Below are positions 19,796 to 45,013 of a stretch of 64,000 nucleotides of DNA, piece by piece. Source of the DNA: Microlunatus elymi (GTDB lineage: Bacteria; Actinomycetota; Actinomycetes; Propionibacteriales; Propionibacteriaceae); contig NZ_CP041692.1 in the NCBI RefSeq assembly GCF_007362775.1, positions 1,984,001 through 2,048,000 of the forward strand, read 5' to 3'. The position numbers and the translations under genes are program-made. Position 1 is the stretch's first letter. Each line of letters begins with the position of its first letter. The notes under the pieces were generated by a model. That model had not been told where the DNA came from and did no database searches. It saw only the letters and a list, made by a program, of their open reading frames with translations.

Positions 19796-20767
19796 TCATG
19801 CCAGCAACCGCCGCGCGGTGTAGTTGTCGGTGACCAGGATGTTGATCCAGCCGCCGCGCGCGGCGGCCCGGATCGCGTCGACCTTCGGTGCTCCACCGGC
19901 GACACCGATCCGCCGGGGCACGGCCAACAGGTCGTCGGCGCCGATGCCGATCACGCGGTTGCGCAGATCCCCGTCGACGGGCGCGCCGTTCCCGTCGAAG
20001 AAATTCAGGCAGACGTCGCCGACCGCGTGCATCGAGGACAGCCGATCGATGTCGGCCTGGGGCAGCGCAGCACCCCAGGAGGTCCGGAGCGGAGTCGCCG
20101 CGCCGATACCGGTGAGGACCACGCTCAAGGTGCGCCACGCGGCAGCCGCATCGGCGATGTACGGGTCGGCGAGCAACCCGTCCCGGACATCGCGGTTGGC
20201 GACCACTCCGGGAGCAGCGAGATAGATCGGGTCAGCACCGGTCAACTGCGCCAATCGATCGGTGAGCCGGGTAGCCTGCGCCCGCATCGTCGGGTTCCCG
20301 ACCGCTCCCAGGGTCTGGACCACGACCTCGGCACTGCCCGCCACGATCGGGGCCAGCGACTCGACCATGGCCAGCAGGGACGCGGAACGAGACGAGATGC
20401 CGACCCGCTCGCCGGAGGCCAGAGTCGACTCGAAGTAGGAAGCTGCAGCGGCCCCGATGGCTGACAGCACCCCGGCGTCGTCGTCCGAGGCGGCTTCGGA
20501 GACGACCACGTCGCGCAGCCCGAGTTCGGCAGCGATGGCCTGCTCCAGCTCGGAGAAGAAGCCCGGCGGGGTCACCACCGTGGTGCGTACGACACCAAGA
20601 CGCTGAGCGTCCTTCAACAGCCGGGAAACCCTTGACTGGCTGAGATTCAGCCGCTCTGCGATCTCCGGCTGCCGGATGCCTTCCTCGTGATACATCCGGG
20701 CGGCCTTGATCAGCAGTGCCAGCCGACCACGTTGTGGCTGATGGGTGCCGTTGGACGGCTCGGTCAC
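19796..20767 (-). CDS. SorC/DeoR-type sugar-responsive transcriptional regulator
   Basis: A 323-residue SorC family regulator with an N-terminal helix-turn-helix (about residues 15-60, RQPEIAERLNLSQSRVSRLLKDA) and a C-terminal sugar-phosphate-binding domain (GERVGISSRSASL, VVVQTLGAVGN, GIGADDL, VDAIRAAARGGWINILVTD). It is the last gene of the ten-gene operon and overlaps the racemase-like gene by 4 bp. By family it binds a phosphorylated sugar or sugar acid, which fits a product of the DUF1537 kinase as effector. Confidence 0.88.
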   Translation of the reverse strand: MTEPSNGTHQPQRGRLALLIKAARMYHEEGIRQPEIAERLNLSQSRVSRLLKDAQRLGVVRTTVVTPPGFFSELEQAIAAELGLRDVVVSEAASDDDAGVLSAIGAAAASYFESTLASGERVGISSRSASLLAMVESLAPIVAGSAEVVVQTLGAVGNPTMRAQATRLTDRLAQLTGADPIYLAAPGVVANRDVRDGLLADPYIADAAAAWRTLSVVLTGIGAATPLRTSWGAALPQADIDRLSSMHAVGDVCLNFFDGNGAPVDGDLRNRVIGIGADDLLAVPRRIGVAGGAPKVDAIRAAARGGWINILVTDNYTARRLLA

Positions 20768-21426
20768 CTGCTCGCCTCGCTCCGGGCGAGCAACTCGGCG
20801 ACGCGCCGGATGCCGAGCTCCGGGCTGGTCAGCACCGGTACGTCGACCTGGGTCTTGGCTGCAGCGGAGGCCATCGACGCCTGGGCGAGCACGATCACGT
20901 CGCTGCGGCCGGCCTGGTCGGTGATGGCCTGGGCGACCAACGCGTCGTGCCGGTCCCGATCGCCGCCGGTAACCGCTTCGAAGGCGCCAGGGACGACGAC
21001 TTCGGTGATCTCCGGTTGTTTGCCCTGTCCGGCCGCCCGTTCTCGCAGCAACGCGGCCGTGGGCAGCAGCGTCGTTTCCAGAGTGGCGATCACGCTGATC
21101 CGCTGAGCGCCGCGGACCGCTTCGTCGGCCATCGCCTCGTCGATCCGGAAGACCGGCAGGCCAAGATCATCTTCCAGAGCGGCGGCGTAGCCGGAGATGG
21201 ACGAGCAGGTGAAGACGATCGCGTCGGCGCCGGACGTTTTCGCCGCCCGTCCGAGTGCGGCCAACCGGGTTGCGATGTCGGTTCTTTCCGCGCCTCGGCC
21301 CAGGTCGGAGACGATGCGATCATCCAGCAGGTGTTGGATCTCAACCGTCGGCAGCTGGTGCGCGGCCAGCTCGGTGAAGGTGGGGATGACGACGGCTCCG
21401 GTGTGGAGCATGGCAAGCCGGGTCAT
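20764..21426 (-). CDS. Asp/Glu racemase-fold enzyme lacking the second catalytic Cys
   Basis: A 220-residue Asp/Glu/hydantoin-racemase superfamily protein. The first cysteine is present in IVFTCSSISGYAAAL (about residue 74). Where racemases have a second Cys, this protein has VIVLAQASMASAA. One-Cys members of this fold include decarboxylases and lyase-like enzymes. In this operon it could process a keto-acid or malonate-like intermediate from the sugar-acid route, but that is inference. 16 bp downstream of the GH127 gene and overlapping the SorC gene. Confidence 0.7.
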   Translation of the reverse strand: MTRLAMLHTGAVVIPTFTELAAHQLPTVEIQHLLDDRIVSDLGRGAERTDIATRLAALGRAAKTSGADAIVFTCSSISGYAAALEDDLGLPVFRIDEAMADEAVRGAQRISVIATLETTLLPTAALLRERAAGQGKQPEITEVVVPGAFEAVTGGDRDRHDALVAQAITDQAGRSDVIVLAQASMASAAAKTQVDVPVLTSPELGIRRVAELLARSEASR

Positions 21427-21442
21427 GGGTCGGTCCTTCCGG

Positions 21443-23434
21443 TCAGCGGAGCAGTGGGAGCCAGACAGACATCTCGCCGGATCCGCGGTTTCCCCACAGA
21501 GCGTAGGGAATCAGCCGCAGGTCCAGCGGTGTCGGCGGACTGGGATCGAGTTCGGCGTACAGCCGGCCGTCCGGTACGGGGTCAGGCAATCGGGCAGCCG
21601 TGCCGCGCAGCAGGACGTGGCCGCCGAAGATGCCGTCGCCCGGCTCCTCGGTCCAGTCGATCGTCTGCGGGATCGCGACGGAGCCCACGGTGACGTCGTC
21701 GGGCAGGTCGGCCGACTCGACGCAGTAGACGACTGGACCGCGTACGACGCTGACCTGGTTGGTCGCCTCCTCCAGGAACCGATGGGCGACCGTCAGCCGG
21801 ACCGACAGGTCCAGGGAGATCTCGACGGTGTTGTGATCCCACTGTTGATCAAGGACGGCATAACCGCTTTCGAACCGATCCACCGGTCGACCGTCCACCG
21901 ACACCTGCGCGTCTTTGCTCCAGCCGGGAATCCGCACCCGCAGCTGACCGTCGACCGGCCGTTCCGCCTGCACGCCGAGGCGAATGATCCCGGTTGCGGG
22001 GTAGTCGGTTTCCTGGCGCACCGTGACGGCAACTCCGTCGAAGTCGGTGGTCGCGGTGCCGGTCACGAACTGGTGCACCCAGGCGGTCCGGTCCTTGTGG
22101 CTGTAGGCGTAGTAGGGGAGTTCGGTGATGACGCGGGCGATGTTGGGTGGGCAGCAGAAGCACGCGGTCATGTACTCCTGGCGTCCGCGCTCATGCGACG
22201 GCGGCGGCACGGAGTCCTTCGGGTTGCCCGCGCGCCGCAGCGGGAAGGGCAGGTCTCTGACCTGACGCAGCGGGTTGGTGTAGAAGTAGCTCGTGCCGTC
22301 GGCGCCGATCATCGCCGGCAGCGCGTTGTAGATGACTCGCTCGATCTCGTCGGCGTAGCGTGCGTCTCCGGTCAGGGTGAGCATCCGCCAGGCCCAGAAG
22401 ATCAAGCCGAGCGATGCGCACGATTCGTTGTAGGCGGTGACATTCGGCAGTTGGTAGGGGCGGCCGTAGGCCTGATGCACCCGGGTGATCGCCCAGTAGT
22501 TCTGCCCGGCGTCGGGTGAGGCACCGTCGTACAGCGCGCCGCAGCCGCCGGTGATGTAGAGCTTGGAGCCGACCAGATCATCCCAGATGCTCTGCAGCGC
22601 GGTGATCAACTCCTGGTCGCCGGTCTCCAGCGCGTAGTCGGCCATCCCCGCATACAGGTAGTTGGCGCGCACGGAGTGTCCGACAGCCTGCCGCTGTTCT
22701 CGAACCGGCAGTACGTCCTGGTTGTCGTCGCTGCCGTCGGATCCCTTGCCACCATGGAGATCCAGCAGCTTGCCGGCCAGTTCGAGGTATCGCGCGTCGC
22801 CGGTGGTGCGATAGAGCTCGATCGAGCCCATGTAGTGGGACGGGCAGATGTTGCAGTCGGCCAACCGCTCCGGGTGGTCGATGGTGAGGCCGATCAAGTA
22901 GCCGGCGGCCCGCTCGGCCACCTTCAGATAGGAGTTGTCTCCGGTCAGCCGATAGTGAACGCAGGCGAGGTTCATCAGGTGGCCGAGGTTGTAGGTCTCG
23001 AAATTGAGCCGCTCGTCCAACGGCAGCACGTCGCTGCCCGCCCGCTGCGCGATCGTCGTCTTGGTGTGGAGGTAGCCGTCCGGCTGCTGGGCTCGCTCGA
23101 TGGCGATGGCGGCCTTGGTCAGGTAGTCGGCCAGATCGGTGTCCGGCGACTCGGCCGCGGCAACGGTTGCCGATTCCAGCCACTTGTAGAGGTCGCCGTC
23201 CATGAACGGCGGTCCGTGATGTTCGCCGGCGAAATCACCCGCGGCGACCAGAAAATTCTCGTAGGCATGCGCGATCGACGAGTCGAACATGATCTTGCCC
23301 ATGGTCGGAACGGTGACCTCCACCGTCCGCGCCCGCAGCCGCGCGACCGGGCCGGGCCCGGTGATCGTGCAGCCCTTGGCCGGCAGACAGGACATGACCG
23401 CGTACGGGCTGTTGCTCGTGTCGGTGAGCATCAT
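21443..23434 (-). CDS. GH127 family glycoside hydrolase (DUF1680)
   Basis: A 663-residue GH127 protein. Known members are beta-L-arabinofuranosidases and, in Bacteroides, an aceric-acid hydrolase acting on rhamnogalacturonan II. The zinc/cysteine active site is recognisable: NESCA (about residues 335-339, Glu and Cys ligands) and the CFCCPPN motif (about 424-430) that holds the nucleophile Cys and a neighbouring Cys ligand. An alpha/alpha barrel precedes C-terminal beta domains. No signal peptide, so cytoplasmic. The start overlaps the kinase stop by 4 bp. Which of the GH127 activities applies is open. Confidence 0.85.
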   Translation of the reverse strand: MMLTDTSNSPYAVMSCLPAKGCTITGPGPVARLRARTVEVTVPTMGKIMFDSSIAHAYENFLVAAGDFAGEHHGPPFMDGDLYKWLESATVAAAESPDTDLADYLTKAAIAIERAQQPDGYLHTKTTIAQRAGSDVLPLDERLNFETYNLGHLMNLACVHYRLTGDNSYLKVAERAAGYLIGLTIDHPERLADCNICPSHYMGSIELYRTTGDARYLELAGKLLDLHGGKGSDGSDDNQDVLPVREQRQAVGHSVRANYLYAGMADYALETGDQELITALQSIWDDLVGSKLYITGGCGALYDGASPDAGQNYWAITRVHQAYGRPYQLPNVTAYNESCASLGLIFWAWRMLTLTGDARYADEIERVIYNALPAMIGADGTSYFYTNPLRQVRDLPFPLRRAGNPKDSVPPPSHERGRQEYMTACFCCPPNIARVITELPYYAYSHKDRTAWVHQFVTGTATTDFDGVAVTVRQETDYPATGIIRLGVQAERPVDGQLRVRIPGWSKDAQVSVDGRPVDRFESGYAVLDQQWDHNTVEISLDLSVRLTVAHRFLEEATNQVSVVRGPVVYCVESADLPDDVTVGSVAIPQTIDWTEEPGDGIFGGHVLLRGTAARLPDPVPDGRLYAELDPSPPTPLDLRLIPYALWGNRGSGEMSVWLPLLR

Positions 23435-24705
23435 TGCCTTTCAGAACAGGACGATTTACTGGTTGCTGAGGCGGCGTTGACCGATCCGCCGGTCTTGATC
23501 TTGGTGAACAGGTCGGCTTCGCCCATCTGTCCGCCCTTGAGGACGAACTCGGTCCGACTCAGGTGCTGCTCCTGCCCATCGCCGTGGCACAGGCAGACGT
23601 TTCCCCACGGTTGAGCGGCGACGCTGAGCGTGTTGACGCCGAGGCGACGCAGCACCCGCCCGGAGGTGTCTCCACCACAGATGATCACACGGCCGTGGTC
23701 GGCTCGACGAAGCCAGGCATCGCCGATCTCGGCCAGCCGATCCGGGATCTCCTCGGCGGCAACGGTTTTCGACGACTCGGTGGAGCTGACGATGACGTCG
23801 GCGCCGTCGGACTGCAGGTCCAGTGTGCGGCGCAGTGCGTCGTCGTCGAAGAGATCCAGCCGCGGCCATCCCGATGTCGCGACTTGCTGCTGAGTACGCG
23901 CCGAGGTGCTTCCGCTGAGCACCAGGATCGGACCGTCGGCCGGCTCGGCCGTTGTCGGCAGCGGCGGCATCGTAGCGGTCCGGGGCGGCGTCGCGGTCCG
24001 GCCGAGCGCGGCGCTGATGCCGCCGGACCCGATCACGAACGCCGGCGCAGCACCGCGATCCATGATCGTCCGTGCCAGCAGGTCGAGTTGCTGATCGGTG
24101 AAGGCGTCGCAGAGCATGCCGGCCTCGGGCCCGGACAGGGCTGCGGCGACCGTGTCCGGCTGGTCGTAGGCGGTCCACGGCAGCAGTCCGATGGGCAGCT
24201 TCGTCTGCCGGCCGAGGAAGAGCCGCAGGTCGGATTCGGTGGCTGGCGTGACCGGGTGGTTGATCATGGTCGGCTGCCGGTCCAGCCGGAACACCTCGGC
24301 CCCGTCCCGGGCGAAGTGGTGACCGAAGAACGTGTAGCGGCCGAAGTCGGGCTGGGCGAAGACCAACGGGATGGGTCCGGCTCCGAACAGCCTGGTGCCC
24401 AGTTCAAGCACCTGACCCAGGCTGCCGATCTCGGGCGAGGAATCGACGGTCGAACAGGCCTTGTACTGAATCAGATCCGGCTGCAGCCTGTGCAGCCGGG
24501 ACAGGGCGGGGAGAGCCTCCGCGGCCATCTTGTCGGTCGGCAGGGATCGTGCGGTGCCGGCGATGCCGACGACGTCGTGCCCGTCGGTGGGCAGCTCGAC
24601 GGCTGCAGAGGTCGCCAGCACGCCACTGAGGCCGGCCCGGCGGAACTGCAGCAGCACGTCCACCGAACCGGTGAAATCGTCACCGTAGAAGGCGAAACGA
24701 GGCAT
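23431..24705 (-). CDS. DUF1537 four-carbon acid sugar kinase family protein
   Basis: A 424-residue sugar-acid kinase of the OtnK/DtnK/OiaK superfamily, which phosphorylates threonate, erythronate, 3-oxo-isoapionate and related acids with ATP. Family landmarks: FYGDDFTG at residues 6-13 (substrate-binding), the C-terminal nucleotide part with VIICGGDTSGRVLRRLGV (about 340-357), and the glycine-rich KGGQMGEADLF near 390. It shares one base (TGATG) with the upstream RuBisCO-like gene, so both products are made together. Pairing with that protein suggests 3-oxo-isoapionate as substrate. Confidence 0.85.
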   Translation of the reverse strand: MPRFAFYGDDFTGSVDVLLQFRRAGLSGVLATSAAVELPTDGHDVVGIAGTARSLPTDKMAAEALPALSRLHRLQPDLIQYKACSTVDSSPEIGSLGQVLELGTRLFGAGPIPLVFAQPDFGRYTFFGHHFARDGAEVFRLDRQPTMINHPVTPATESDLRLFLGRQTKLPIGLLPWTAYDQPDTVAAALSGPEAGMLCDAFTDQQLDLLARTIMDRGAAPAFVIGSGGISAALGRTATPPRTATMPPLPTTAEPADGPILVLSGSTSARTQQQVATSGWPRLDLFDDDALRRTLDLQSDGADVIVSSTESSKTVAAEEIPDRLAEIGDAWLRRADHGRVIICGGDTSGRVLRRLGVNTLSVAAQPWGNVCLCHGDGQEQHLSRTEFVLKGGQMGEADLFTKIKTGGSVNAASATSKSSCSERQ

Positions 24706-25949
24706 CAGCGCCGGCCGAACTTGTCGATCGCGGCGGCAAGCTCGGGCACCCGCGCCGCCCGGGCGTCCAACGACTCGCCCTCGATCGCTGCTGCCCAGGC
24801 CTCCCGCATCGACCGCACCCCGGCTGCCGAGCCGTGCGGATGGCCGTGGATGCCGCCACCGGCGAGCACCAGCAGGTCCTCGGTGCCGGTGGCGGCGTAG
24901 GTGGCGTGGGCCAGTCCGGCCGACTGGCCCGACGACAGCACCGGCAGGATGTGGTAACCGCCCAGGAACGGACGCCGGACGGCCTCGATCGAAGCCAGCA
25001 CCTGCTCGTCGGACTCGTAGAACTTGTTCGCGATTCCGTTGGTGTGCAGATGATCGACGCCGGCCAACCGAGCGAGCTTCTGGAAGGCCGTGAACCCGAT
25101 CCCGAGCTGGGGAGAGCGGGAGAAGGCGCCGAACATCGCCCGGTGACCGTGGATCGGCAGCTCGGATCGTTCCCGCAGGTAGTGCACTCCGGCCAGGCCG
25201 ACGAGATTGACGCAGACCATCACGCAGCTGCCGCCGGCCTCCAGCACAAGATCATGATTGGCGGCCAGCCGGGAGATGTCGTCGGTGATGTTGAACGCGT
25301 ACATCGGCATCCGGCCGGTCCGGTCGGCGTACGGCTTGAGCACCGACATCACCGCCCGGACCCGTTCGGCCAACGGCAGACACGGGGCGCTGCCCTGCAG
25401 CTCGTCGTCCTTGATGAAATCGATGCCGGCCTCGACGATCTCCCGCACCAGCGCCGCCAGTTCGTCGGCGGACAACCCGATGCTGGGCTTGACGATGGTT
25501 CCGATCAACGGGCCGGACTCGCGGCCGACCAGCTTGCGGGTGCCCTGCACGCCGAAACCGGGACCCGGGTAGGCATCGGCAAAAGCCATCGGCAGGTCGA
25601 GATCGATCAGCCGTAGCGCACCGACCTCCCTTAGCTCGAACAGGTTGCCCGCGACCGCGGCCAGCAGGTTCGGCAGCGAGGCTCCGAAGTTGTGCAGCGG
25701 GAACGCAATCCGCACCCGGGCCCGCCTGGCGACGCTCCAGTCACCCGATGCGCCCGGCAGTGGTGGCCGGCCGCTCGGCGGAAGCTCGTCGATCGATTCC
25801 ACCGTCGCGGCGTGCCGAGCGGTCAACCGCTCGGTCTCGCCCCGCACCGCGACGAAGGTGCCGGTGGACTGCTCTCCCGCAATGGTGGCGACGGTCGCCT
25901 CGAGCGGGAGGGCAGTTTCGATCTCGTACGTTGCCCGTACGACATCCAT
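24705..25949 (-). CDS. RuBisCO-like protein, OiaX-type candidate
   Basis: A 414-residue RuBisCO large-subunit-like protein. Catalytic positions are retained: K154 (IVKPSIGL), the KDDE motif at 180-183 (carbamylated Lys and metal-binding Asp/Glu), H267 in HGHRAMFG, and the loop-6 lysine K309 in NGIANKFYESD. The phosphate-binding glycines appear in LAGGGIHGHPHGS. The specificity loops differ from true RuBisCO. RuBisCO-like proteins beside DUF1537 kinases act on 3-oxo-isoapionate 4-phosphate (cleavage or decarboxylation) in D-apiose catabolism. The ATG at 25949 follows AAGGAGA. No apionate oxidoisomerase is visible in the window, so the upstream step is missing or different. Confidence 0.85.
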   Translation of the reverse strand: MDVVRATYEIETALPLEATVATIAGEQSTGTFVAVRGETERLTARHAATVESIDELPPSGRPPLPGASGDWSVARRARVRIAFPLHNFGASLPNLLAAVAGNLFELREVGALRLIDLDLPMAFADAYPGPGFGVQGTRKLVGRESGPLIGTIVKPSIGLSADELAALVREIVEAGIDFIKDDELQGSAPCLPLAERVRAVMSVLKPYADRTGRMPMYAFNITDDISRLAANHDLVLEAGGSCVMVCVNLVGLAGVHYLRERSELPIHGHRAMFGAFSRSPQLGIGFTAFQKLARLAGVDHLHTNGIANKFYESDEQVLASIEAVRRPFLGGYHILPVLSSGQSAGLAHATYAATGTEDLLVLAGGGIHGHPHGSAAGVRSMREAWAAAIEGESLDARAARVPELAAAIDKFGRR

Positions 25950-25981
25950 CGCTGTCTCCTTATGTGGGACGTGGCAAGCGA

Positions 25982-27655
25982 CTAGCGCGCGGCCTTCTCC
26001 GGATTCGGCTTCAGGTGCTGGATGGTGATCGTCGCATCCACCGGCTGGGTGATGTGCGGGATGTACTCGGCGCTCTTGGGATCCGGCCAGCCGATCCAAT
26101 CGGTGGAGTTCACGTTGACGTAGTAGGTGGCCGAGTGCAGCGGGGCGTACGGCACCTGATCGACGATGATCTTGGAGATCTCCGCGGTGCGTTGCTTGAG
26201 CGCGTTCGTGTCCAGTGTCTGGGCCATCTGGTTCAGCAGCTTGTCCACCTGCGGATTCTCGAACCGACCCTGGTTGGCCACCGCGGTCTTGCCGATCGGC
26301 ACCACGTAACTGCTGTTCAGCTGGGCGTTGAGGCTGGCCCAGATGTCGTCACCGCTCAACAGGTACTGCTGGATCATCTGGAAGTCACCGTTGCCGAGAT
26401 CACGCGACCAGGACTGGCCCGGCTCCGCGTTCAGCTTCACCTTCAGCCCGAGCACCTGCTTGAACTGCTCCTGCACGGCCGGCCCGTAGGTGTTCCAGGT
26501 CGAGTCGTCGGAGTTGGTGATCAACGTGATCGGGTAGCTCTTGCCGCCCTTGGTCAGGGTCCCGTTCTCGACGGTGTAGTCGCTGGCCTTCAGTTCCGAC
26601 TTGGCCAGTTCGACGTTCTGCTGGTGCCGCACGTTTGCCAGATCCGACGGCAGGTAGCTGCCCCAGGTGTCGGGCTCCAGACCGGTCGGGTTGGCGGTCT
26701 TGGTGCCGGAGTTGAACAGCTTGGACAGGTCGTCGGCGTTGATCGCGGCGTAGAGGGCACGGCGGATGTGCACGTCGGTGGTCGGGCCCTTCTTCATGTT
26801 GAAGAGCAGGCCGGTGGAGAAACCTGCCGGATAGGTCCAGTAGTGGTTGTGCTGCGGGTCGGCTCCGACGAAGTCGGTCTGGTAGTTCTGCCAACTCATC
26901 CCGGCCCAGGTGATCTGGTTCTTCAGCAGCATCTGCTTGCCGGATTCCTCCGACGCGAACGGCTTGATCTCGACATGTTTGACGCCGTTGAACTTGCCGT
27001 TCCAGTAGTTGTCGCGCACCTTCAGCCGGATGGACTGCGGACTGAACGATTCCAGGGTGAACGCACCGGTGGACACCGGCTCCTTGTTCGTCCACTTCAC
27101 CGGATCCTGTTTCTCCCACAGGTGCTTCGGCACGATCGCTCGCGGGATCTTGCTGTAGTTGGTCAGGTCATGCAGTTCCGGCTTGGTGTAGTTGACGACC
27201 ACCGTGTGCTCGTCCGGTGTCTCGATCGAACCGAGGTCGGGGATCGGTGCAACTGCCAGGCCGTTGGTCGTGGTCGGCAACTCGAGGGTGTACTTCACGT
27301 CGGCGGAGGTGAACGGCTGACCGTCGCTCCAGGTGACGTCGTCGCGGAGGTGGAAAGTCAGTTTCTTGCCGTCGGAGGAGAACTCGTACGACTTGGCCAG
27401 CCACGGCTCGACCTTCATCGCGTCGGCGCGGTTGACCCGGATCAACGGCTCGAAGATCAGGTTCATCAACGGGCTCTTGTTCGCGGCCGGGGAGAACGGG
27501 TTGAAGTTCTGGGTGTACGAGGTCGCGCCGCCCATCGCGAGCTTGAGGGTGTCGACGACCTGCCCGGTGGGGCTCTTGGTGCGTTCCGTGGAGCAGGCAG
27601 CGCCGCTCACGATCAGTGCTAACGCCAGCACCACGGCGATGATTCGGCTTTTCAT
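25982..27655 (-). CDS. ABC transporter substrate-binding lipoprotein (Opp/Dpp type)
   Basis: A 557-residue extracytoplasmic solute-binding protein of the peptide/nickel/oligosaccharide family (SBP_bac_5). It has a lipoprotein signal peptide (MKSRIIAVVLALALIVSGAAC, Cys about residue 21) and typical features SLRVNRADAMKVEPWLAKSYEFSSDGKKLTFHLRDDVTWSDGQPFT-like segments spread over residues 60-130. Members with glycosidase neighbours usually bind oligosaccharides, not peptides. It overlaps the OppF-like gene by 4 bp and sits 32 bp before the RuBisCO-like gene. Confidence 0.85.
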   Translation of the reverse strand: MKSRIIAVVLALALIVSGAACSTERTKSPTGQVVDTLKLAMGGATSYTQNFNPFSPAANKSPLMNLIFEPLIRVNRADAMKVEPWLAKSYEFSSDGKKLTFHLRDDVTWSDGQPFTSADVKYTLELPTTTNGLAVAPIPDLGSIETPDEHTVVVNYTKPELHDLTNYSKIPRAIVPKHLWEKQDPVKWTNKEPVSTGAFTLESFSPQSIRLKVRDNYWNGKFNGVKHVEIKPFASEESGKQMLLKNQITWAGMSWQNYQTDFVGADPQHNHYWTYPAGFSTGLLFNMKKGPTTDVHIRRALYAAINADDLSKLFNSGTKTANPTGLEPDTWGSYLPSDLANVRHQQNVELAKSELKASDYTVENGTLTKGGKSYPITLITNSDDSTWNTYGPAVQEQFKQVLGLKVKLNAEPGQSWSRDLGNGDFQMIQQYLLSGDDIWASLNAQLNSSYVVPIGKTAVANQGRFENPQVDKLLNQMAQTLDTNALKQRTAEISKIIVDQVPYAPLHSATYYVNVNSTDWIGWPDPKSAEYIPHITQPVDATITIQHLKPNPEKAAR

Positions 27656-28716
27656 GATGGGTCTCCCAGCTCCTGCGTCTTCGGGGTGTCGGTGGGTTTC
27701 TCGGCATGGAGCCAGCAATGCGTCCAGTGATCGGCACTGAGCTGGCTGCGAGGAGGGAACGTGGTCTTGCAGATGTCCATGGCGAACGGACAGCGGGGGT
27801 GGAATCGGCATCCGGCGGGCGGATCGGCCAGATTGGGCGGTTCGCCGAGATCGAGCGCGGCGCCGGCGTCCAGCGAGGTCTCCGGATCGGGGGAGGACTC
27901 CAGCAGCAGTTGGGTGTAGGGATGCTGCGGGTTCTGGATCACCGATTCCGTCGGTCCGCCTTCGACGGTCTGTCCGGCGTACATCACCTGCACCGCGTTG
28001 GCCAGGTAGCGTGCGCTGGCGATGTCGTGGGTGATGTAGAGCATCGCCAGGTCCTGCTCGTCGCGCAGTTTGCGGAGCAGATTCAGGATGTCGAGGCGAA
28101 TGGACACGTCGAGCATCGAGATCGGCTCGTCGGCGAGGATCACCTCGGGATCGACCGCGAGCGCCCGGGCGATCACCAGACGCTGCCGCTGGCCGCCGGA
28201 CAGCTGGTGCGGGTAGGCGTCGACCAGGTCTGCGGCCGGGGTCAGATTGACCCGCTCCATCAGCTGGAGGATGCGCCCCTGCAGTTCGGCCCGGCCGGCG
28301 AAGTCGTGATGCAGCTTGAGCGCCCGCTCCAGGTTGTGTCGTACCGGTTTCTGCGGGTTCAGCGCGCCGAACGGATCCTGGAAGATCAACTGCACCCGGC
28401 TGTGGAACTCGCGATTTCCGAAGCCCAGCTTGGCATCGACGGGTTCACCGTCGAGTCGGATCTCCCCGGAGGTGACCGGGTAGAACTGGGCGAGCAGTCG
28501 GGCCAGGGTCGTCTTGCCGCTGCCCGACTCGCCGACCAGCGCGACGATCTGACCGCGCCGCAGTTGCAAGCTCGCGTCCTCGACGGCGTGGATGACCGAA
28601 CCGCCGCCGAACGCACTGTGCACGTCGAAGTGTTTGCTGACGTTCTTCGCCTCGAGCACCACGGGTGCATCGCGGTCCACGGTCCGAGTCTCGGCGGTCA
28701 CCGGCTGGGAAGTCAT
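27652..28716 (-). CDS. ABC transporter ATP-binding protein (OppF-like)
   Basis: A 354-residue ATPase. Walker A GESGSGKTT (about residue 60), ABC signature LSGGQRQRL, Walker B VILADEPISMLD, and the C-terminal oligopeptide-ABC extension with Cys-rich GCRFHPRCPFAMDIC, which in this family can hold an iron-sulfur cluster. The GGAAGG site and ATG at 28716 set the start. It shares one base with the OppD-like gene and is the second of two ATPases of the importer. Confidence 0.9.
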   Translation of the reverse strand: MTSQPVTAETRTVDRDAPVVLEAKNVSKHFDVHSAFGGGSVIHAVEDASLQLRRGQIVALVGESGSGKTTLARLLAQFYPVTSGEIRLDGEPVDAKLGFGNREFHSRVQLIFQDPFGALNPQKPVRHNLERALKLHHDFAGRAELQGRILQLMERVNLTPAADLVDAYPHQLSGGQRQRLVIARALAVDPEVILADEPISMLDVSIRLDILNLLRKLRDEQDLAMLYITHDIASARYLANAVQVMYAGQTVEGGPTESVIQNPQHPYTQLLLESSPDPETSLDAGAALDLGEPPNLADPPAGCRFHPRCPFAMDICKTTFPPRSQLSADHWTHCWLHAEKPTDTPKTQELGDPS

Positions 28717-29801
28717 CACACCGACCTTCCGGATGGTTCTGCCGGCACTCCGGCGGGGGAGACGTCGTGAAGATGGCAGGCGACCTGCCGATCGCCGATC
28801 GGCGACAAGATCGGCAGTTCGGAGGAACACCGGTCGAAGCGGTGGCTGCAGCGTGGATTGAAGGGGCATCCGGACGGCGGATGGCGCAGGTCCGGCGGGT
28901 TGCCACCGATGCCGGACAGCTCCGTCAGCGGTGCATGCAGGGACGGGAAGGCGTCGCGCAGGCCGCGGGCGTATGGGTGCAGCGGATCGTTGTAGATCTG
29001 CTGGGCGGACGCTTCCTCGACAATCCGACCGGCGTACATGATCGCGATGCGATCGGCCAACTGCACCAGCAGGGACAGGTCATGGGTGACGAAGACGACC
29101 GCGAACCCGAGTTGCTCCTGCAGGCTCAACAGTTGCGCCAGGATCTGCCGCTGCATGACCACGTCCACTGCTGTGGTCGGCTCGTCCATCACCACGATGC
29201 GTGGCTGGCAGGCCAGCGCCAGCGCGATCAGCGATCGCTGCCGCATCCCTCCGGACAGCTCATGGGGATAGCTGCGGGACCGGTTCGCCGGCACCCCGAC
29301 CATCTCCAGCAACTCGGCGACCCGAGCCTTGACGGCCTGCTGGCCCATGCCTCGGTTGTGCTGCCGCAGCGCGTCGGCGAACTGGTCGCCGAGCCGCATC
29401 ACCGGATTGAGGCAGTCCATCGCCGACTGCAGCACGATCGCGATCTCGTTCCACCGCAGCCGTCGCAGCGCGGCGTCGCTCAGCGTGGTCAACTCGACCG
29501 TGCCGCTGTCCGGTGAGTGGTAGGTGATGCTGCCGCCGACGGTGACGGCCGGTGGCCGCTGCAGCCGGGTGAGCGCGGTGATCAGCGTTGACTTGCCCGA
29601 GCCGGACTCGCCCGCGACCCCGACGATCTCGCCCTCGTGCAGGGTGAGGTCGACGTTGTTGCACGAGCGGACCGGGCCGCGTTCGGTCAGGTAGTCCACG
29701 GTGAGCCCGGAGACCTCCAGGATCGGACGGCCTCGCCGGCGTTCGGACTGGGGAACGGTGCCGGTCGGTGCGAAGCGTTCCCGGACGAGATTCTCAGTCA
29801 T
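28716..29801 (-). CDS. ABC transporter ATP-binding protein (OppD-like)
   Basis: A 361-residue ATPase with Walker A GESGSGKST, signature LSGGMRQRS, Walker B IVVMDEPTTAVD, the H-loop THD and the C-terminal GCPFNPRCSHRFDRC Cys motif of oligopeptide transporters. It powers the importer together with the OppF-like protein as a heterodimer. Overlaps the OppC-like permease gene by 4 bp. Confidence 0.9.
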   Translation of the reverse strand: MTENLVRERFAPTGTVPQSERRRGRPILEVSGLTVDYLTERGPVRSCNNVDLTLHEGEIVGVAGESGSGKSTLITALTRLQRPPAVTVGGSITYHSPDSGTVELTTLSDAALRRLRWNEIAIVLQSAMDCLNPVMRLGDQFADALRQHNRGMGQQAVKARVAELLEMVGVPANRSRSYPHELSGGMRQRSLIALALACQPRIVVMDEPTTAVDVVMQRQILAQLLSLQEQLGFAVVFVTHDLSLLVQLADRIAIMYAGRIVEEASAQQIYNDPLHPYARGLRDAFPSLHAPLTELSGIGGNPPDLRHPPSGCPFNPRCSHRFDRCSSELPILSPIGDRQVACHLHDVSPAGVPAEPSGRSV

Positions 29802-30748
29802 CGAGCCGCCACCTTCTGCCGGCTGCTGGGTTCGGCAACATCGCGTTGGCCCTTTCGGAAGTTCTTCTTGCGCAGCTTGTCGAATTGCCGTACGAGGGCA
29901 CGCTCCTTGCCCTGCAGCCGGGGGTTGCTGAGTTCGTCGATGCCGAAGTTGATCAAGGCGGTTGCGGTGCCGATCAGAGCCAGACACAGACCCGGCGGCA
30001 AGTACCACCACCAGTAGCCCAATCGGATTGCCGACTGATCGCGCGAGTCCTCGATCATCGTTCCCCAGCTGATCGTCTCGGCGCTGATGCCGAGGAAGGC
30101 CAGACCGGCTTCGGCCATCACGCCGGCCACCATGGCCCGCAGGAACATGGCCGAGATGATCCCGGTCAGATGCGGCAGGATCTCGGAGAAGATCAGCCGG
30201 CTGCGGGTCTCGCCCAGGGCGCGCATGGCGACCGCGAAATCCCTGTTGCGCAACGACAGGGTCTGGGCCCGCAGGTAGCGTGCGCCGGCCGGCCACTCGA
30301 AGATGCCGATCAGGAATGCGACCACCACCCAGGTGACGCCCTGCACGTAACCGGCCACGATCAGGATCAGCGCGAAGCTCGGCAGCGTGATGAACAGGTT
30401 GGTCAGCACCGTCAACACCCGGTCGGACCGGCCGCCGAGGAAGCCGCCGGTGACGCCGACCAAGATCGCCAGCACGGTGGCCAACACGGCCGACGTGACA
30501 CCGACCGCGACGCTGCTGCGTGCCCCGACCAGGACCTGAGACAGCACGTCCTGGCCGCTGTTCGTGGTGCCGAGCGGATGACCGCCGCCGGGAGGCTGGT
30601 GCAGTGCGTTGTAGTCGATGGCATCGGCCGGCATCTGCAGGACGTGGTTGACGAATGGCGGCCCGGCGATGGCCACGAGGATGAAGATGGCCAGAATCGC
30701 AAAGCCGATCCGGGCACGCCAGGAACGGAACAGGCGTCGTACGGACAT
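29798..30748 (-). CDS. ABC transporter permease (OppC-like)
   Basis: A 316-residue permease with six membrane segments. It has the N-terminal extracytoplasmic segment typical of OppC (HPLGTTNSGQDVLSQVLVGAR) and the EAA loop in DFAVAMRALGETRSRLIFSEILPHL. It pairs with the OppB-like protein. The ATG at 30748 overlaps the stop of the OppB-like gene. Confidence 0.9.
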   Translation of the reverse strand: MSVRRLFRSWRARIGFAILAIFILVAIAGPPFVNHVLQMPADAIDYNALHQPPGGGHPLGTTNSGQDVLSQVLVGARSSVAVGVTSAVLATVLAILVGVTGGFLGGRSDRVLTVLTNLFITLPSFALILIVAGYVQGVTWVVVAFLIGIFEWPAGARYLRAQTLSLRNRDFAVAMRALGETRSRLIFSEILPHLTGIISAMFLRAMVAGVMAEAGLAFLGISAETISWGTMIEDSRDQSAIRLGYWWWYLPPGLCLALIGTATALINFGIDELSNPRLQGKERALVRQFDKLRKKNFRKGQRDVAEPSSRQKVAAR

Positions 30749-31845
30749 CAGTTGCTCTCCCTGGTCCGCGGATCGAGCAGGACGTACAGCGAATCGGCGA
30801 GGAAGTTGGCCGCCAGCGTGGTCAGCGTGATCATCAAGAACACGGTCTGCATCACGGGGAAGTCGTGGGCGCCGATCGCCTTCAGCAGCAGGTAACCCAT
30901 GCCCGGGTAGGTGAAGACGATCTCGGTCAGCAGCACACCGCTGATCACGCCGCCGATGGACAACGCCAGGCCGGTCACGTTCGGCAGCAGGGCGTTGCGG
31001 GCGGAGTACTTGAACAGCACTCGCCGGCTGGACAGGCCCTTCGCGCGGGCCAGCAGCACGTAGTCCTCGGCCACGGTGGTGACCATCACGTTGCGCATCG
31101 AGAAGAACCAGCCGTTGAAGCCGACGAAGATCAACGTGAAGGCCGGCAGCGCGCCGTACTTCAGCACCGACAGCAGGAACCAGATGTTGTTGAGCTGGAA
31201 CGGGACGCTGGGGTCGTAGCCGCCGGCCAGCGGGAACCAGCCGAGCACGAATCCGAACAGCCACAGGGCGAGCAGGGCGAGCCAGAACGGCGGAACCGAG
31301 TGCAGGAAGGTGGTCACCGGGGTGAAGATCGTGTCGACGCGGCTGCCCGGCCGGGTGCCGATCCAGGCTCCCAGGAAGGTGCCGATGACCCAGGCGAAGA
31401 TCGTGGTCACGCCGACCAGCAGGACGGTCCAGGGCAGCGCCTGGCCGACCAGCTCGGAGACCGGGGTGGGGAATTCGCTCAGTGAGGTGCCGAAGCGGAA
31501 CCGGGCGATGTCGGCCCAGTACTGCAGGTACTGCCCGAACAGGTTTTCCGTGGGATCGCCGTAGAAGGTGTGGATGGCGGCGATCTGATCGGGGGTCGGG
31601 GTCTGCCCGGTCTGTTGCTGCAGGTTGTTCAGCAGATCCTGGGCCGGATCGCCGGGGACGAAACGCGGAATCAGGAAGTTCAACGTGATCGCTGCCCACG
31701 CGGTGAACACATAGAAGCCGAACCTGCGGGATAGGAAACGCAGTGGATTCTTCCGCGCCCGGCCCGCGGTCGCGGTCTTGGCGTCGGACGGTTCGCCGGC
31801 TTCGGCGGGCAGTGGCTGGGCAAGCCCGGGCTGTGACGCGGTCAC
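30748..31845 (-). CDS. ABC transporter permease (OppB-like)
   Basis: A 365-residue permease, first gene of the ten-gene operon, starting at a GTG. The OppB pattern is clear: RFVPGDPAQDLL after the first membrane segment, and the EAA loop in DYVLLARAKGLSSRRVLFKYSARNALLP. A hydrophilic 40-residue N-terminal extension (Ala/Pro-rich) precedes the first membrane segment. The GTG has no strong ribosome site; a leaderless or short-leader transcript is possible. The promoter is presumably shared with the divergent glycoside hydrolase. Confidence 0.88.
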   Translation of the reverse strand: MTASQPGLAQPLPAEAGEPSDAKTATAGRARKNPLRFLSRRFGFYVFTAWAAITLNFLIPRFVPGDPAQDLLNNLQQQTGQTPTPDQIAAIHTFYGDPTENLFGQYLQYWADIARFRFGTSLSEFPTPVSELVGQALPWTVLLVGVTTIFAWVIGTFLGAWIGTRPGSRVDTIFTPVTTFLHSVPPFWLALLALWLFGFVLGWFPLAGGYDPSVPFQLNNIWFLLSVLKYGALPAFTLIFVGFNGWFFSMRNVMVTTVAEDYVLLARAKGLSSRRVLFKYSARNALLPNVTGLALSIGGVISGVLLTEIVFTYPGMGYLLLKAIGAHDFPVMQTVFLMITLTTLAANFLADSLYVLLDPRTRESN

Positions 31846-31985
31846 TGGTTGAGTCCGAACGGCGTGACTGCACGGACGGCAGCCCGGTCCGTGGCCGTGA
31901 TCAACATTGAGAGCCCCCCGTCGCGCTCGGCAGCCGTGAGTTGGCCGCCCGGAAGAAGCGATCGTGATCCCCGGACGCCAACCGA

Positions 31986-32020
31986 TCTAGCATGTCTAGT
32001 CAGGGCTACATATATAGTCA
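31986..32020. promoter_or_regulatory. Divergent promoter/operator region of the sugar locus
   Basis: An unusually AT-rich stretch between the permease gene and the divergent glycoside hydrolase. It holds CTAG elements around a CATG core (CTAGCATGTCTAG, from 31987), TAGTCA at 31998 and again 20-odd bases later, and TACATATATAG (a good -10 candidate). The repeated TAGTCA and the CTAG palindrome look like binding sites for the SorC or another regulator. Confidence 0.5.
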
Positions 32021-32097
32021 CACCGGAGCAGGGATGTCAACGCCGACCCCCGCGATCTGGACCGGAGCCGTCAACCGTAGGAGTAGGAGCCCAGACC

Positions 32098-34284
32098 ATG
32101 AGCAACGGCGACCCTCACGTTCGGCCGGCGCCGTACGTTGTCGATCATCACCAACGTGCCCGGTCGGAGGCCGATCTGTCGCACCTGCTCGACGCGCCGG
32201 CCGGCCGGGACGGGTTCATCGGCGTCCGTGACGGCCACCTGGTCCAGCCGGACGGCCGTCGGCTGCGCATCTGGGGTGTGAACCTGACCGGGTGGACGAA
32301 GGGCTCGACCCTGCTGCCGCCGAAGGAGGAGGCGCCGATCTGGGCGGCCGCGCTGGCCCGCTTCGGCATCAACTGCGTACGGTTCCACTTCCTGGATCTG
32401 CCCACCCTCGACGAGGAAGACGTTGATCACCAGCAGCCCGGCGGGTTGATCGACCGGCGCCAGGAGCACACCCGGTCCTTCGATCCCGAACAGCTGGACC
32501 GGCTCGACTTCTTCGTCGCCGAACTGAAGCAGCGTGGGATCTACACGAACCTGAACCTCAACGTGGGTCGCACCTACACCGAGGGCGACGGCGTGCCGGA
32601 CTGGGACGCGGTGCGGATCTGGAAGGGCATGACCTTCATCGGCGAGCGGCTGATCGAGCTCCAGCGAGACTATGCGCGGGACCTGCTGACCCACCACAAC
32701 CCGTACACCGGGAACGAGTACCGGCATGAACCGGCGGTGGCGATCGTCGAGATCGTCAACGAGAACTCGCTGTACGAGTTCTGGATGCGCAACTGGCTGA
32801 GGGGAGAGCGGACGAAGGACAATCCGGACATCCAGCTCGACTTCACGCCGTTCTATGCGGAGCAGCTCGACGCCAGGTATCAGGACTGGCTGGCCGGCAA
32901 CCGAACCGAGGACCAGCTCGCCGAGTTGCGGAAGCTCGCGGGCGTCGCGGCGGATGCGCCGATTCCGCGGCTGCGGGTGGAGCAGTTCGCCGAGGCACCG
33001 GCGCCGCTGTTCCATGCCGAGGGCGAGTTCTACGGCGCGGTCGAGCGCGACTTCTTCCTGGACATGAAGCGATATCTCACCGACGACCTCGGCGTCGCGT
33101 CGCTGATCGTCGGCTGCGCCGACCACACCTACTGGATCCCCAACCAGCCGATTGTGCAGGGCACTTCGCAGCTCGACATCGTCGACGGGCACGTCTACTG
33201 GCAGCACCCGGCCATCTGGGGCGCCCGGAACACGCCGATGGTCGACGATCCGCTGAACTCGACGATCGTCAAACTCAGCCGGTCACCGGTCGCCGGCAAG
33301 CCGTTCATGGTGAGCGAGGTGAACCACCCCAATCCGAACGAGTATGCAGCCGAGATGATCCCGATCCTGGCCGCATACGCCGCCTTCCAGGACTGGGACG
33401 GGATCTTCTTCTACACCTTCGAACCCAAGGCGCTGGGCGACTACCAGCGCTATGTGGCCGACAACTTCGACATCACTCTCGATCCGGTGAAGCTGATCCA
33501 GCTGGCAGCCGGAGCCCTGATCTTCTGCCGAGCCGACGTCCGGCCGGCGCGCCGGACCGTCACCCGGTCCTATTCGGCCGAGCAGGTGCTGGAGAGCATC
33601 CGGCTGCCGGAGTCGGCGCGGCCCTACTTCACGCCCGGCTTCCCGACCTCGACCGCGTTGCGCCACGGTCTGCGGATCTCCTCCTTCGACGGCGAGCCGA
33701 CCGCCGCCTTCGCTGCGGATGAACCCGGCCCCTACCTGACCGACACCGGCGAGCTCGGCTGGCACGTCTCGCCCGAGCACGGCGGCCTGGTCACCATCGA
33801 CACCGATCGCACTCAGGCACTGGTCGGCTTCGTCACCGCCAACGGTCGCACGACACGGCATCTGGCAGCCGACGTCGCCAACCGGTTCTGCGCGATCACC
33901 CTGAGCTCGCTGGACGAGCAGCCGATCGCCCGTAGCGAGAAGCTGTTGCTGACCGCGTGTTCGAGGATCGAGAACACCGGTACGCAGTGGAACGCTCGGC
34001 ACACCTTATGGGAGACCTGGGGCCACGGGCCCACGCTGATCGAACCGGTGACCGGTTGGCTGGTGCTGACCGACCTCCAGGGGCCCATAGACATCCAGGT
34101 GACCCCGCTCGACGGCTCCGATCGGCCTATCGTCGAGCCCGTCCACGCGCGCCGGCTGGAGATCGGCTGGGAGATCCCGCTCGGCGATCCCGCCACGACG
34201 CAGTACCTGATCCACCCCGTACGCTCTGCGGAGCAGGCCAAGCGACTCGCGCGGGGTGGTCCGCGGTCCGAATTCTTCGGCTGA
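32098..34284 (+). CDS. Clan GH-A glycoside hydrolase, family not assigned
   Basis: A 728-residue cytoplasmic protein with an N-terminal TIM-barrel of clan GH-A (residues about 30-480) and C-terminal beta domains. The RIWGVNLTGW start of the barrel, the acid/base glutamate in VAIVEIVNENSLYEF (about residue 222; NEN where most families have NEP) and the nucleophile region MVSEVNHPNP (about 405) are visible. GH5-like or related families are possible, but I cannot name one. The GGAGTAGGAG site supports the ATG at 32098 although the frame is open to 31849. It is divergent from the importer operon and probably acts on the imported saccharide. Confidence 0.75.
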   Translation: MSNGDPHVRPAPYVVDHHQRARSEADLSHLLDAPAGRDGFIGVRDGHLVQPDGRRLRIWGVNLTGWTKGSTLLPPKEEAPIWAAALARFGINCVRFHFLDLPTLDEEDVDHQQPGGLIDRRQEHTRSFDPEQLDRLDFFVAELKQRGIYTNLNLNVGRTYTEGDGVPDWDAVRIWKGMTFIGERLIELQRDYARDLLTHHNPYTGNEYRHEPAVAIVEIVNENSLYEFWMRNWLRGERTKDNPDIQLDFTPFYAEQLDARYQDWLAGNRTEDQLAELRKLAGVAADAPIPRLRVEQFAEAPAPLFHAEGEFYGAVERDFFLDMKRYLTDDLGVASLIVGCADHTYWIPNQPIVQGTSQLDIVDGHVYWQHPAIWGARNTPMVDDPLNSTIVKLSRSPVAGKPFMVSEVNHPNPNEYAAEMIPILAAYAAFQDWDGIFFYTFEPKALGDYQRYVADNFDITLDPVKLIQLAAGALIFCRADVRPARRTVTRSYSAEQVLESIRLPESARPYFTPGFPTSTALRHGLRISSFDGEPTAAFAADEPGPYLTDTGELGWHVSPEHGGLVTIDTDRTQALVGFVTANGRTTRHLAADVANRFCAITLSSLDEQPIARSEKLLLTACSRIENTGTQWNARHTLWETWGHGPTLIEPVTGWLVLTDLQGPIDIQVTPLDGSDRPIVEPVHARRLEIGWEIPLGDPATTQYLIHPVRSAEQAKRLARGGPRSEFFG

Positions 34285-44917: not shown

Positions 44918-45013
44918 GGAGGCGTACAGGTGCCTGGTGGCCCTCCCGGTCTTCAAAACCGGTGAAGCCGAGTAGCTCGGCTTGGCGGGTTCGATTCCCG
45001 TCCGTCTCCGCCA
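44918..45013 (+). tRNA. selC: Selenocysteine tRNA (UCA anticodon)
   Basis: A 96-nt tRNA-Sec with encoded CCA. The acceptor stem begins GGAGGCG and ends CGTCTCC before GCCA, an 8-bp stem typical of tRNA-Sec. The anticodon loop is CTTCAAA (TCA at 44953-44955), enclosed by CCGGT/ACCGG. The long variable arm AAGCCGAGTAGCTCGGCTT and the T arm GCGGGTTCGATTCCCGT are visible. It is followed 40 bp later by selA. Confidence 0.95.

Follow-up and report, generated by a model that had tools for sequence, protein, structure and literature searches.

Which sugar acid is degraded by an operon that combines an ABC importer, a RuBisCO-like protein (RLP), a DUF1537 kinase, a GH127 glycosidase, a racemase-fold protein (RACE) and a SorC regulator? 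The question is raised by a locus of Microlunatus elymi (genome G000), which lies in a window of 64,000 nucleotides, i.e., the whole stretch of DNA analyzed here. Ten minus-strand genes span positions 31845 to 19796, joined by overlaps of 1–4 bases or by gaps of 32 and 16 bases. An earlier sequence-only reading had named these genes, and they were recovered at or very near the positions assigned to them; the TGATG it ascribed to both the RLP and the kinase gene can be read at their junction. The operon and its flanks comprise the following features, numbered within the window:

30748..31845, minus strand: ABC importer permease 1, with which the operon begins (PF00528, E 5e-41)
29798..30748, minus strand: probable ABC importer permease 2 (open frame with ATG at 30748 and overlaps of 1 and 4 bases with the adjoining genes)
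28716..29801, minus strand: first ATPase of the ABC importer, Opp/Dpp type (sub-cut-off match to the NCBIfam OppD model, E 4e-82)
27652..28716, minus strand: second ATPase of the ABC importer, Opp/Dpp type (sub-cut-off match to an NCBIfam dipeptide ATPase model, E 1.6e-85)
25982..27655, minus strand: substrate-binding protein, family 5 (PF00496, E 7e-66)
24705..25949, minus strand: RLP, which would decarboxylate the aceric acid ketose once phosphorylated (OiaX model, active-site residues, tree)
23431..24705, minus strand: DUF1537 kinase, putatively acting on C1 of the ketose (PF07005 and PF17042, OiaK model)
21443..23434, minus strand: GH127, proposed aceric acid hydrolase (NF049879, PDB 5mqo, tree)
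20764..21426, minus strand: RACE, proposed aceric acid aldose-ketose isomerase with one conserved Cys (PF01177, E 9e-17)
19796..20767, minus strand: SorC/DeoR-type regulator (PF04198, E 3e-51)
19411..19752, plus strand: L-rhamnose mutarotase, flank (PF05336, E 1.3e-17)
17787..19289, minus strand: GH29 alpha-L-fucosidase, flank (PF01120, E 4e-71)
31849..34284, plus strand: putative glycosidase of 811 aa, divergent from the operon (PDB GH5 match only, E 0.007)

Pfam matches bear out the GH29 and mutarotase genes that had been named as flanks. The third flanking gene, previously called a clan GH-A enzyme, is present, but this class is weakly supported, as its product matched nothing in Pfam or NCBIfam and the PDB match is the one listed above.

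Among the NCBIfam models, OiaX is the best family for the RLP (427.7 bits), followed by a type III RuBisCO model (277.1), and OiaK is the best family for the kinase (227.8 bits, compared with 136.6 for 3-oxo-tetronate kinase and 49.4 for D-threonate kinase). The earlier description of both proteins as OiaX- and OiaK-like is thus upheld. By family scores, they side with neither methionine-salvage nor tetronate-type proteins: the MtnW models, despite the common RLP fold, gave 204.5 and 167.9 bits, and the kinase, although of one family with OtnK and DtnK of the tetronate pathways, scores lower there than against OiaK. The curated cut-offs of 700 bits are reached neither by the window RLP (NF042437) and kinase (NF042436) nor by a kinase relative from Sphingobacteriaceae (449.9 bits against OiaK). 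RLPs from seven apionate-type loci likewise score only 416–480 bits, so that the OiaX model has to be regarded as narrow; as two Bacteroidota RLPs from RACE-type loci reach 506–508 bits, its score has no power to separate the two kinds of locus. The residues K154, K180, D181, D182, E183, H267 and K309 are all found at the numbers given in the sequence-only reading, and K154, K180, D182, E183, H267 and K309, which we take to be the catalytic positions, are kept in 30/30, 9/9 and 19/19 sequences of three groups (window numbering). The operon resembles the OiaK/OiaX branch of D-apiose use, reportedly described by Carter et al. in 2018, in that a DUF1537 kinase adjoins an OiaX-like RLP with the checked catalytic residues kept, and the proposed reaction, decarboxylation of a phosphorylated branched beta-keto acid, would be the same. 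In contrast, neither the oxidoisomerase-like family PF16896 nor ApnL is among the operon's genes, which include RACE and GH127 instead, both proteins lie below the equivalog cut-offs, and the proposed substrate would hold one more methyl group.

D-apiose catabolism includes the OiaK/OiaX branch (PMC6302742). Loci of the D-apionate kind carry PF16896 and ApnL (816 and 825 bits in two loci, cut-off 750), mostly without RACE, and RACE marks a second, largely exclusive kind of RLP locus. Altogether, 41 loci were RACE-only, 19 PF16896-only and two contained both. A GH127 of at least 290 bits was present in 29 of the 41 RACE-only loci and in none of the 19 PF16896-only loci. For the other 12 RACE-only loci, the retrieved sequence contained no GH127; neither ApnL cluster has a member among the 41. 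In the RLP tree, the RACE loci belong to two separate clades, one of Actinomycetota and one of Bacteroidota plus Verrucomicrobiota. As the combination of RLP, kinase and RACE is found repeatedly across several phyla, with GH127 in most of these loci, the gene association exceeds chance.

In each of three separate sets of genomes, the presence of RLP also tracks that of aceric acid hydrolase. In Sphingobacteriaceae (n = 151), RLP and RACE of at least 300 bits were found in the same 18 genomes, and a hydrolase of at least 1106 bits in 18/18 of these compared with 20/133 genomes without RLP (Fisher 4e-13, ignoring shared descent); thus 20 of 38 hydrolase-bearing genomes have no RLP. Over-cut-off hydrolases occur in 8/9 RLP genomes of Flavobacteriaceae (n = 299), the exception being G501, and in 5/290 others. 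In the window's own order (n = 196), six genomes have a hydrolase match above 600 bits (next best 479), and RLP and RACE lie within 6 kb of it in all six. All 13 genomes of this order with RACE of at least 290 bits hold an OiaX-like RLP of at least 360 bits, while 6 of 19 RLP genomes showed no RACE at 290 bits among the 15 candidates scored per genome. GH127 directly precedes RLP, kinase and RACE in five Sphingobacteriaceae loci and adjoins RLP in two Flavobacteriaceae genomes (G397, G612). The pectin setting recognized earlier is supported by relatives of the operon which sit among pectin enzymes: upstream of RLP are encoded an alpha-galacturonidase over cut-off in L073 (1539.6 vs. 1300) and a glucuronidase/arabinofuranosidase match below cut-off in L076 (1567 of 1800), both presumably RG-II enzymes.

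The window GH127 itself matches aceric acid hydrolase best in NCBIfam (687.9 bits), without reaching the curated cut-off of 950, and 5mqo best in PDB (E 1.4e-151, next best 5e-96). It falls into a 33-row clade (support 100/100) that contains each of the eight over-cut-off Bacteroidota proteins included in the tree and is separate from eight ordinary GH127 paralogues; two lower-scoring paralogues lie inside the clade and BT1003 itself is absent from the tree. Score and placement agree with the tie to aceric acid hydrolase that the sequence-only reading had drawn. NESC at 336 and CFCCPP at 425 align with NETC and CFCCPP of 5mqo, their Glu and Cys presumably forming the metal and nucleophile site. 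Compared with BT1003 of the Bacteroides RG-II system, the window protein shares the hydrolase affinity but belongs to an actinobacterial branch, is coupled to a catabolic module and is probably intracellular, no signal peptide being evident by eye.

RG-II, the most complex of the pectins, has among its rare sugars the branched sugar acid aceric acid (3-C-carboxy-5-deoxy-L-xylose). From gene content, family ties and co-occurrence we infer, with somewhat more belief than doubt, that the operon breaks down aceric acid by way of GH127, RACE, the kinase, RLP and an aldolase. The importer would take up RG-II-derived oligosaccharides or aceric acid, which GH127 would free inside the cell. Afterward, RACE would isomerize the aldose to its 2-ketose, which we take to be 3-oxo-isoapionate plus one methyl group; since this ketose is already a beta-keto acid, no redox step would be needed. 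The kinase would phosphorylate it at C1 and RLP would decarboxylate the phosphorylated ketose, just as OiaX decarboxylates 3-oxo-isoapionate 4-phosphate, a nearly identical compound, with 5-deoxy-L-xylulose 1-phosphate as product. The rhamnose operon at 1.79 Mb encodes the rhamnulose-1-phosphate aldolase that would cleave this product into DHAP and acetaldehyde. The aldolase gene is present in the genome (RhaD-ADH, 1029 over a cut-off of 568), as is rhamnose isomerase (RhaI, 624 over 531), and RhaD-ADH-type genes, a cluster of which one member was scanned, are located close to the module in L021, L026, L033 and L052. As a route common to Actinomycetota, Bacteroidota and Verrucomicrobiota, in which the one-Cys RACE is an aldose-ketose isomerase and RLP decarboxylates 3-C-carboxy-5-deoxy-L-xylulose 1-phosphate, the proposal is advanced more tentatively.

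RG-II also contains apiose, so that an RG-II setting alone has no power to choose the substrate. A promiscuous RLP and kinase might serve both sugars in RG-II use, aceric acid via RACE and apiose via PF16896, which we regard as a possible, if tentative, alternative. The two ketose acids differ by one methyl group, and G107 and G134 contain PF16896, divergent beside RLP, GH127 and RACE, in one stretch. Both gene sets are present in the M. elymi genome, with only one RLP match, and its sole PF16896 gene (197.5 bits) lies at 2.53 Mb, about 520 kb from the operon, beside an ApnL-like gene (178.9 bits, cut-off 750); hence, in this organism 3-oxo-isoapionate derived from apiose may be a further substrate of the RLP and kinase. 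However, PF16896 is missing from 29 of 32 RACE-type genomes, and dual use by the PF16896 route can therefore not be general.

The step proposed for RACE is the weakest of the pathway. Known members of the Asp/Glu racemase superfamily (aspartate, glutamate, hydantoin and allantoin racemases and arylmalonate decarboxylase) epimerize or decarboxylate beside carboxylates, and RACE might correspondingly epimerize an intermediate of aceric acid breakdown, e.g., a 5-deoxypentulose phosphate, with another isomerase, such as rhamnose isomerase, making the ketose. Apart from the isomerase gene of M. elymi, the RhaI-type cluster gene that four RACE loci carry close to the module would fit this reading. 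The AF2 model of RACE (pLDDT 95.2) suggests that the whole superfamily fold is shared (3s81: Z 22.5, rmsd 2.6, 214 residues), but identity is 9–22% among the structural matches listed, and the two-Cys pair of Asp/Glu racemases is reduced to one conserved Cys. C74 and Q182 occur in 45/45 RACE sequences, Gln occupying the place of a Cys in 3qvj, which argues against two-base epimerization. Moreover, RACE is, beyond kinase and GH127, the only family found tied to RLP in both clades. Epimerization is thus considered rather unlikely.

Less probable still is apiose as the main substrate, the view of the sequence-only reading, with RLP and kinase acting on apiose-derived 3-oxo-isoapionate, PF16896 and ApnL-like genes located elsewhere, and GH127 and RACE in other RG-II roles. 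The OiaX and OiaK affinities, the genes at 2.53 Mb and the PF16896 neighbours in G107 and G134 are consistent with it, as is the occurrence in five Kribbella RLP loci of a gene from an apiosidase-like cluster (PF13204 at 46.6 bits in the one member scanned). These five lack both RACE and GH127 in the locus, with whole-genome RACE matches of 309–312 bits in three of their genomes, 166 in one and none in one. However, PF16896 was found in 13/13 apionate-type genomes and 3/6 actinobacterial RACE-type genomes, but in none of the 26 Bacteroidota and Verrucomicrobiota genomes with RLP and RACE. The mostly exclusive loci, the confinement of GH127 to those with RACE and the link of RLP with the hydrolase speak against apiose as well. 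The missing oxidoisomerase and the added racemase-fold step, both noted before, were the right clue, pointing to aceric acid instead. Finally, GH127 could have another activity, e.g., that of an ordinary beta-L-arabinofuranosidase, with an unrelated sugar acid as substrate of the RLP module: the sub-cut-off score is not decisive, since 17 Flavobacteriaceae genomes with a best GH127 of 680–849 bits, the window's range, have no RLP, and one report assigns distant BT1003 relatives in a carrageenan-use cluster to presumably other substrates (PMC5698469), but this reading is made quite improbable by the GH127 tree and by the association of RLP with over-cut-off hydrolases across genomes.

Enzymes releasing aceric acid are known. 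In the mostly open-access literature searched, no route was found by which any organism uses the released sugar acid. If true, the aceric acid pathway would close this gap, extend the RuBisCO superfamily to a further substrate and bring a sugar isomerase into the racemase superfamily; it would be testable with four genes and one sugar.

The 5.12 Mb genome of Microlunatus elymi (G000) is represented by one contig, contains the window at 1,984,001-2,048,000 and harbors there an operon of ten genes. The sequence-only reading had listed these genes as well as the flanking GH29 and rhamnose mutarotase, and all of them were found. The features of the window are the following:

31845 down to 19796, minus strand: operon with, in order, two permeases, two Opp/Dpp-type ATPases, a family-5 binding protein, RLP, DUF1537 kinase, GH127, RACE and a SorC-type regulator
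24705-25949, minus strand: RuBisCO-like protein (RLP)
23431-24705, minus strand: DUF1537 protein (kinase)
21443-23434, minus strand: putative aceric acid hydrolase (GH127)
20764-21426, minus strand: racemase-fold protein (RACE)
38542-41901: formate-dehydrogenase-like frame (named by eye)
44918-45013: selenocysteine tRNA

The operon genes are joined by overlaps of 1-4 bases, otherwise by gaps of 32 and 16 bases, and the TGATG described for the junction of RLP and kinase is confirmed. Likewise, the RLP residues listed earlier (K154, K180, D182, E183, H267, and K309) are present at these positions. For the divergent 811-aa gene, family searches yielded no clear family. The initial interpretation as a Gram-positive locus for apiose-, fucose- and rhamnose-bearing pectin side chains is partly supported, with the pectin setting being retained and aceric acid replacing apiose in the best reading. 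Besides, the formate-dehydrogenase-like frame probably encodes a selenoprotein, because it features one in-frame TGA (39109-39111, codon 190) and the selenocysteine tRNA is located 3 kb downstream.

The nearest NCBIfam models are OiaX for RLP (427.7 bits, cut-off 700) and OiaK for the kinase (227.8 bits, cut-off 700), together the pair of D-apiose catabolism, and the aceric acid hydrolase for GH127 (687.9 bits, cut-off 950), with none of the three proteins reaching the curated cut-off. The best alignment of GH127 was obtained with PDB 5mqo (E 1.4e-151; next 5e-96), which is taken to be BT1003. A tree was built from 41 selected rows, comprising the window protein, 24 loci in which GH127 is located close to the RLP module, and 16 stretches taken from genomes (BT1003 not being among them). 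Here, the window protein belongs to a clade of 33 rows (100/100) comprising all eight included over-cut-off Bacteroidota proteins as well as two lower-scoring paralogues. Eight ordinary paralogues, two of them from G000 itself, fall outside this clade. See also PMC10850190 for this comparison.

An alternative is a function of the kinase and RLP in apiose use, as described for OiaK/OiaX (PMC6302742). A scan of genome contigs revealed 555 loci, and among the best 80 of them 41 feature RACE only, 19 the oxidoisomerase-like PF16896 only, two both and 18 neither, where the RACE label denotes more than 120 bits in tblastn (L044, with 87 bits, was scored as without), the PF16896 label any match to the query, and five of the 18 (L003, L005, L012, L040, L042) are short or cut stretches. 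The PF16896 gene of these loci (about 290 aa) would encode the apionate oxidoisomerase, because PF16896 loci also have the D-apionate lactonase ApnL, which exceeds the cut-off of 750 in two cases (816 and 825 bits) while falling short of it in L061, L062, and L072. Among the same best 80 of 555, two ApnL-type gene clusters occur in 8 of the 19 PF16896-only loci versus none of the 41 RACE-only loci, although such counts can miss genes because ORFs were called by simple rules. GH127 of at least 290 bits was present in 29 of the 41 RACE-only loci versus none of the 19 PF16896-only loci (best 80 of 555). The RLP tree divides the RACE loci into two distinct groups with strong support, separated by PF16896-type branches. 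One group is actinobacterial (39 rows, 100/100, five of them Kribbella rows whose locus lacks RACE), and the other unites Bacteroidota with Verrucomicrobiota (9 rows, 100/100), whereas L043, L063, and L079 are scattered outside both. The kinase tree, built by a quick method from the 75 rows left after omission of frames below 380 aa, showed much the same pattern. Over-long open frames were trimmed to the last 240 (RACE counts), 440 (RLP tree) or 470 residues (kinase tree). Residues common to both RACE-type RLP clades compared with the PF16896 kind, e.g., F88, D223, I306, I321, and L360, are noted and carry no weight as proof. A locus titled Planococcus sp. APC 4015 (L021) is placed in an otherwise actinobacterial, mostly Microbacterium, branch of both trees, which is probably a label or contamination problem. 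In L054, the segment 18349-20648 downstream of the RLP-kinase-RACE operon contains a PdxA-like gene together with another DUF1537 gene. Scores against the OiaX model amounted to 416-480 bits for seven RLPs of apionate-type loci and 506-508 for two Bacteroidota RACE-type RLPs, and the cut-off is too narrow to decide the kind of RLP; the argument from the OiaX score was dropped, since RLPs of the apionate type miss the cut-off too. Methionine salvage and tetronate readings were rejected because of the NCBIfam scores.

Whole-genome searches, in which only the top first-look candidates were scored (RACE in the own order, 15 per genome; GH127 in Flavobacteriaceae, three per genome) so that weak or extra copies can escape, link RLP, RACE and the hydrolase further. 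Among 151 Sphingobacteriaceae genomes, RLP was found in 18 and RACE of at least 300 bits in exactly the same 18, all of which are included in the 38 genomes with an aceric acid hydrolase of at least 1106 bits (next best 504). In the own order (196 genomes), hydrolase matches of 626-778 bits are confined to six genomes, with at most 479 in the rest, and in all six, RLP and RACE are encoded no more than 6 kb from the hydrolase. OiaX matches occur there in 35 genomes (19 with at least 360 bits) and RACE matches in 38, the 13 with at least 290 bits all being among these 19; in the remaining 6 of the 19, no such RACE was found among the 15 candidates scored per genome. The seven other sampled genomes of the genus lack an OiaX match. 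In one genome (G113), RACE is located apart from RLP (L097), adjoining genes with ABC-importer-like sizes and order, and no aceric acid hydrolase match above 600 bits was found. Of 299 Flavobacteriaceae genomes, nine have RLP, 13 an over-cut-off aceric acid hydrolase and eight both. The sole RLP exception (G501 C22:323689-324912, 421 bits) may represent another kind of RLP. The Flavobacteriaceae hydrolase scores are not two-peaked, as the best match in 17 more genomes (e.g., G621, G387, G388) amounts to 680-849 bits, comparable to the window protein. RLP is missing from all 17, which lowers the confidence in the aceric acid reading and in the proposed pathway. Several of these GH127s are arranged in tandem. 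The co-occurrences correspond to Fisher values of 4e-7 to 1e-23, uncorrected for shared descent. A RACE with one in-frame TAA (G382 C9:286918-287574) and an RLP split in two pieces (G447 C1:2669457-2670673) are possible decaying copies or assembly errors. Within a sample of 45 chosen genomes, which covers part of the own-order RLP genomes, PF16896 was detected in 13 of 13 apionate-type genomes, in none of 26 RACE-type Bacteroidota and Verrucomicrobiota, and in three of six actinobacterial RACE-type genomes. The latter, together with the two loci featuring both genes, led to the rejection of a strict RACE-for-PF16896 swap as a universal rule.

The surroundings of related loci are in keeping with rhamnogalacturonan II (RG-II). 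Pedobacter Leaf170 (L068) and four Sphingobacteriaceae stretches (L102-L105) share the gene order GH106, GH127, RLP, kinase, RACE and SBF-type transporter. Next come a gene resembling sialate acetylesterase, as scanned in L068, and one with DUF5703, as scanned in both L068 and L103. Ahead of GH106-GH127-RLP, L103 (1-4840) contains a pair of CoA-transferase III genes together with genes for a sugar-binding protein, a GFO/IDH oxidoreductase and a MaoC-like product; a 147-aa gene of this operon was ruled out as sugar isomerase, being MaoC-like. Upstream in Flavobacterium L073 lies an over-cut-off alpha-galacturonidase, and in L076 a protein matching the glucuronidase/arabinofuranosidase model below the cut-off (1567 of 1800), both presumably RG-II enzymes. 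Among the RACE-only loci (best 80 of 555), 17 have GH2 genes (cluster c9) in the vicinity and 16 have GH78 genes (cluster c5), with three members scanned. These glycosidase surroundings of RACE loci fit RG-II use, although the setting alone cannot choose between aceric acid and apiose, because RG-II contains both.

3-Oxo-isoapionate is HOCH2-CO-C(OH)(COOH)-CH2OH, and the 2-ketose of aceric acid, HOCH2-CO-C(OH)(COOH)-CH(OH)CH3, differs by one additional methyl. Aldose-ketose isomerisation of aceric acid alone would yield a beta-keto acid for an OiaK/OiaX-like pair, which would account for an operon with neither dehydrogenase nor oxidoisomerase. Decarboxylation with retention would then lead to 5-deoxy-L-xylulose 1-phosphate in the (3R,4S) form, which rhamnulose-1-phosphate aldolase handles. 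G000 features rhamnose isomerase and a bifunctional rhamnulose-1-phosphate aldolase, both over cut-offs, with only one class II aldolase match in total, and nearby cluster genes of RhaD-ADH type and RhaI type were found at four RACE loci each. The confident structure prediction for RACE (pLDDT 95.2) matches Asp/Glu racemases in fold (3s81, Z 22.5, rmsd 2.6, 214 residues). All 45 sequences compared retain C74 and have Gln where allantoin racemase 3qvj has the Cys presumed to be its second catalytic one. With a single catalytic base, such an enzyme would be better suited to a 1,2-proton shift than to racemisation by two bases. The role of RACE is the least secure element of the proposal, and the pathway with RACE as aldose-ketose isomerase and RLP as decarboxylase of the phosphorylated ketose is put forward tentatively, at rather less than an even chance. 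The literature searched (aceric acid with catabolism, RG-II, RuBisCO and GH127/Pedobacter), with most subscription papers outside its scope, offered no route for aceric acid use.

In actinobacteria, both gene kinds can share one cluster. In G107 (L096) and G134 (L095), a divergent PF16896 gene adjoins RLP-GH127-RACE, which is also accompanied by a GntR-FCD regulator (scanned in L095). In G000, PF16896 is located about 520 kb from the operon:

2,522,000-2,540,000 of G000 (L094): PF16896, a transporter, a nucleoside-hydrolase-like gene and a distant ApnL relative

This locus may represent an apiose branch that supplies the RLP of the operon. Overall, the balance of the findings tilts slightly toward an operon by which RG-II users break down aceric acid, as a variant of the OiaK/OiaX type, perhaps shared with apiose in G000.
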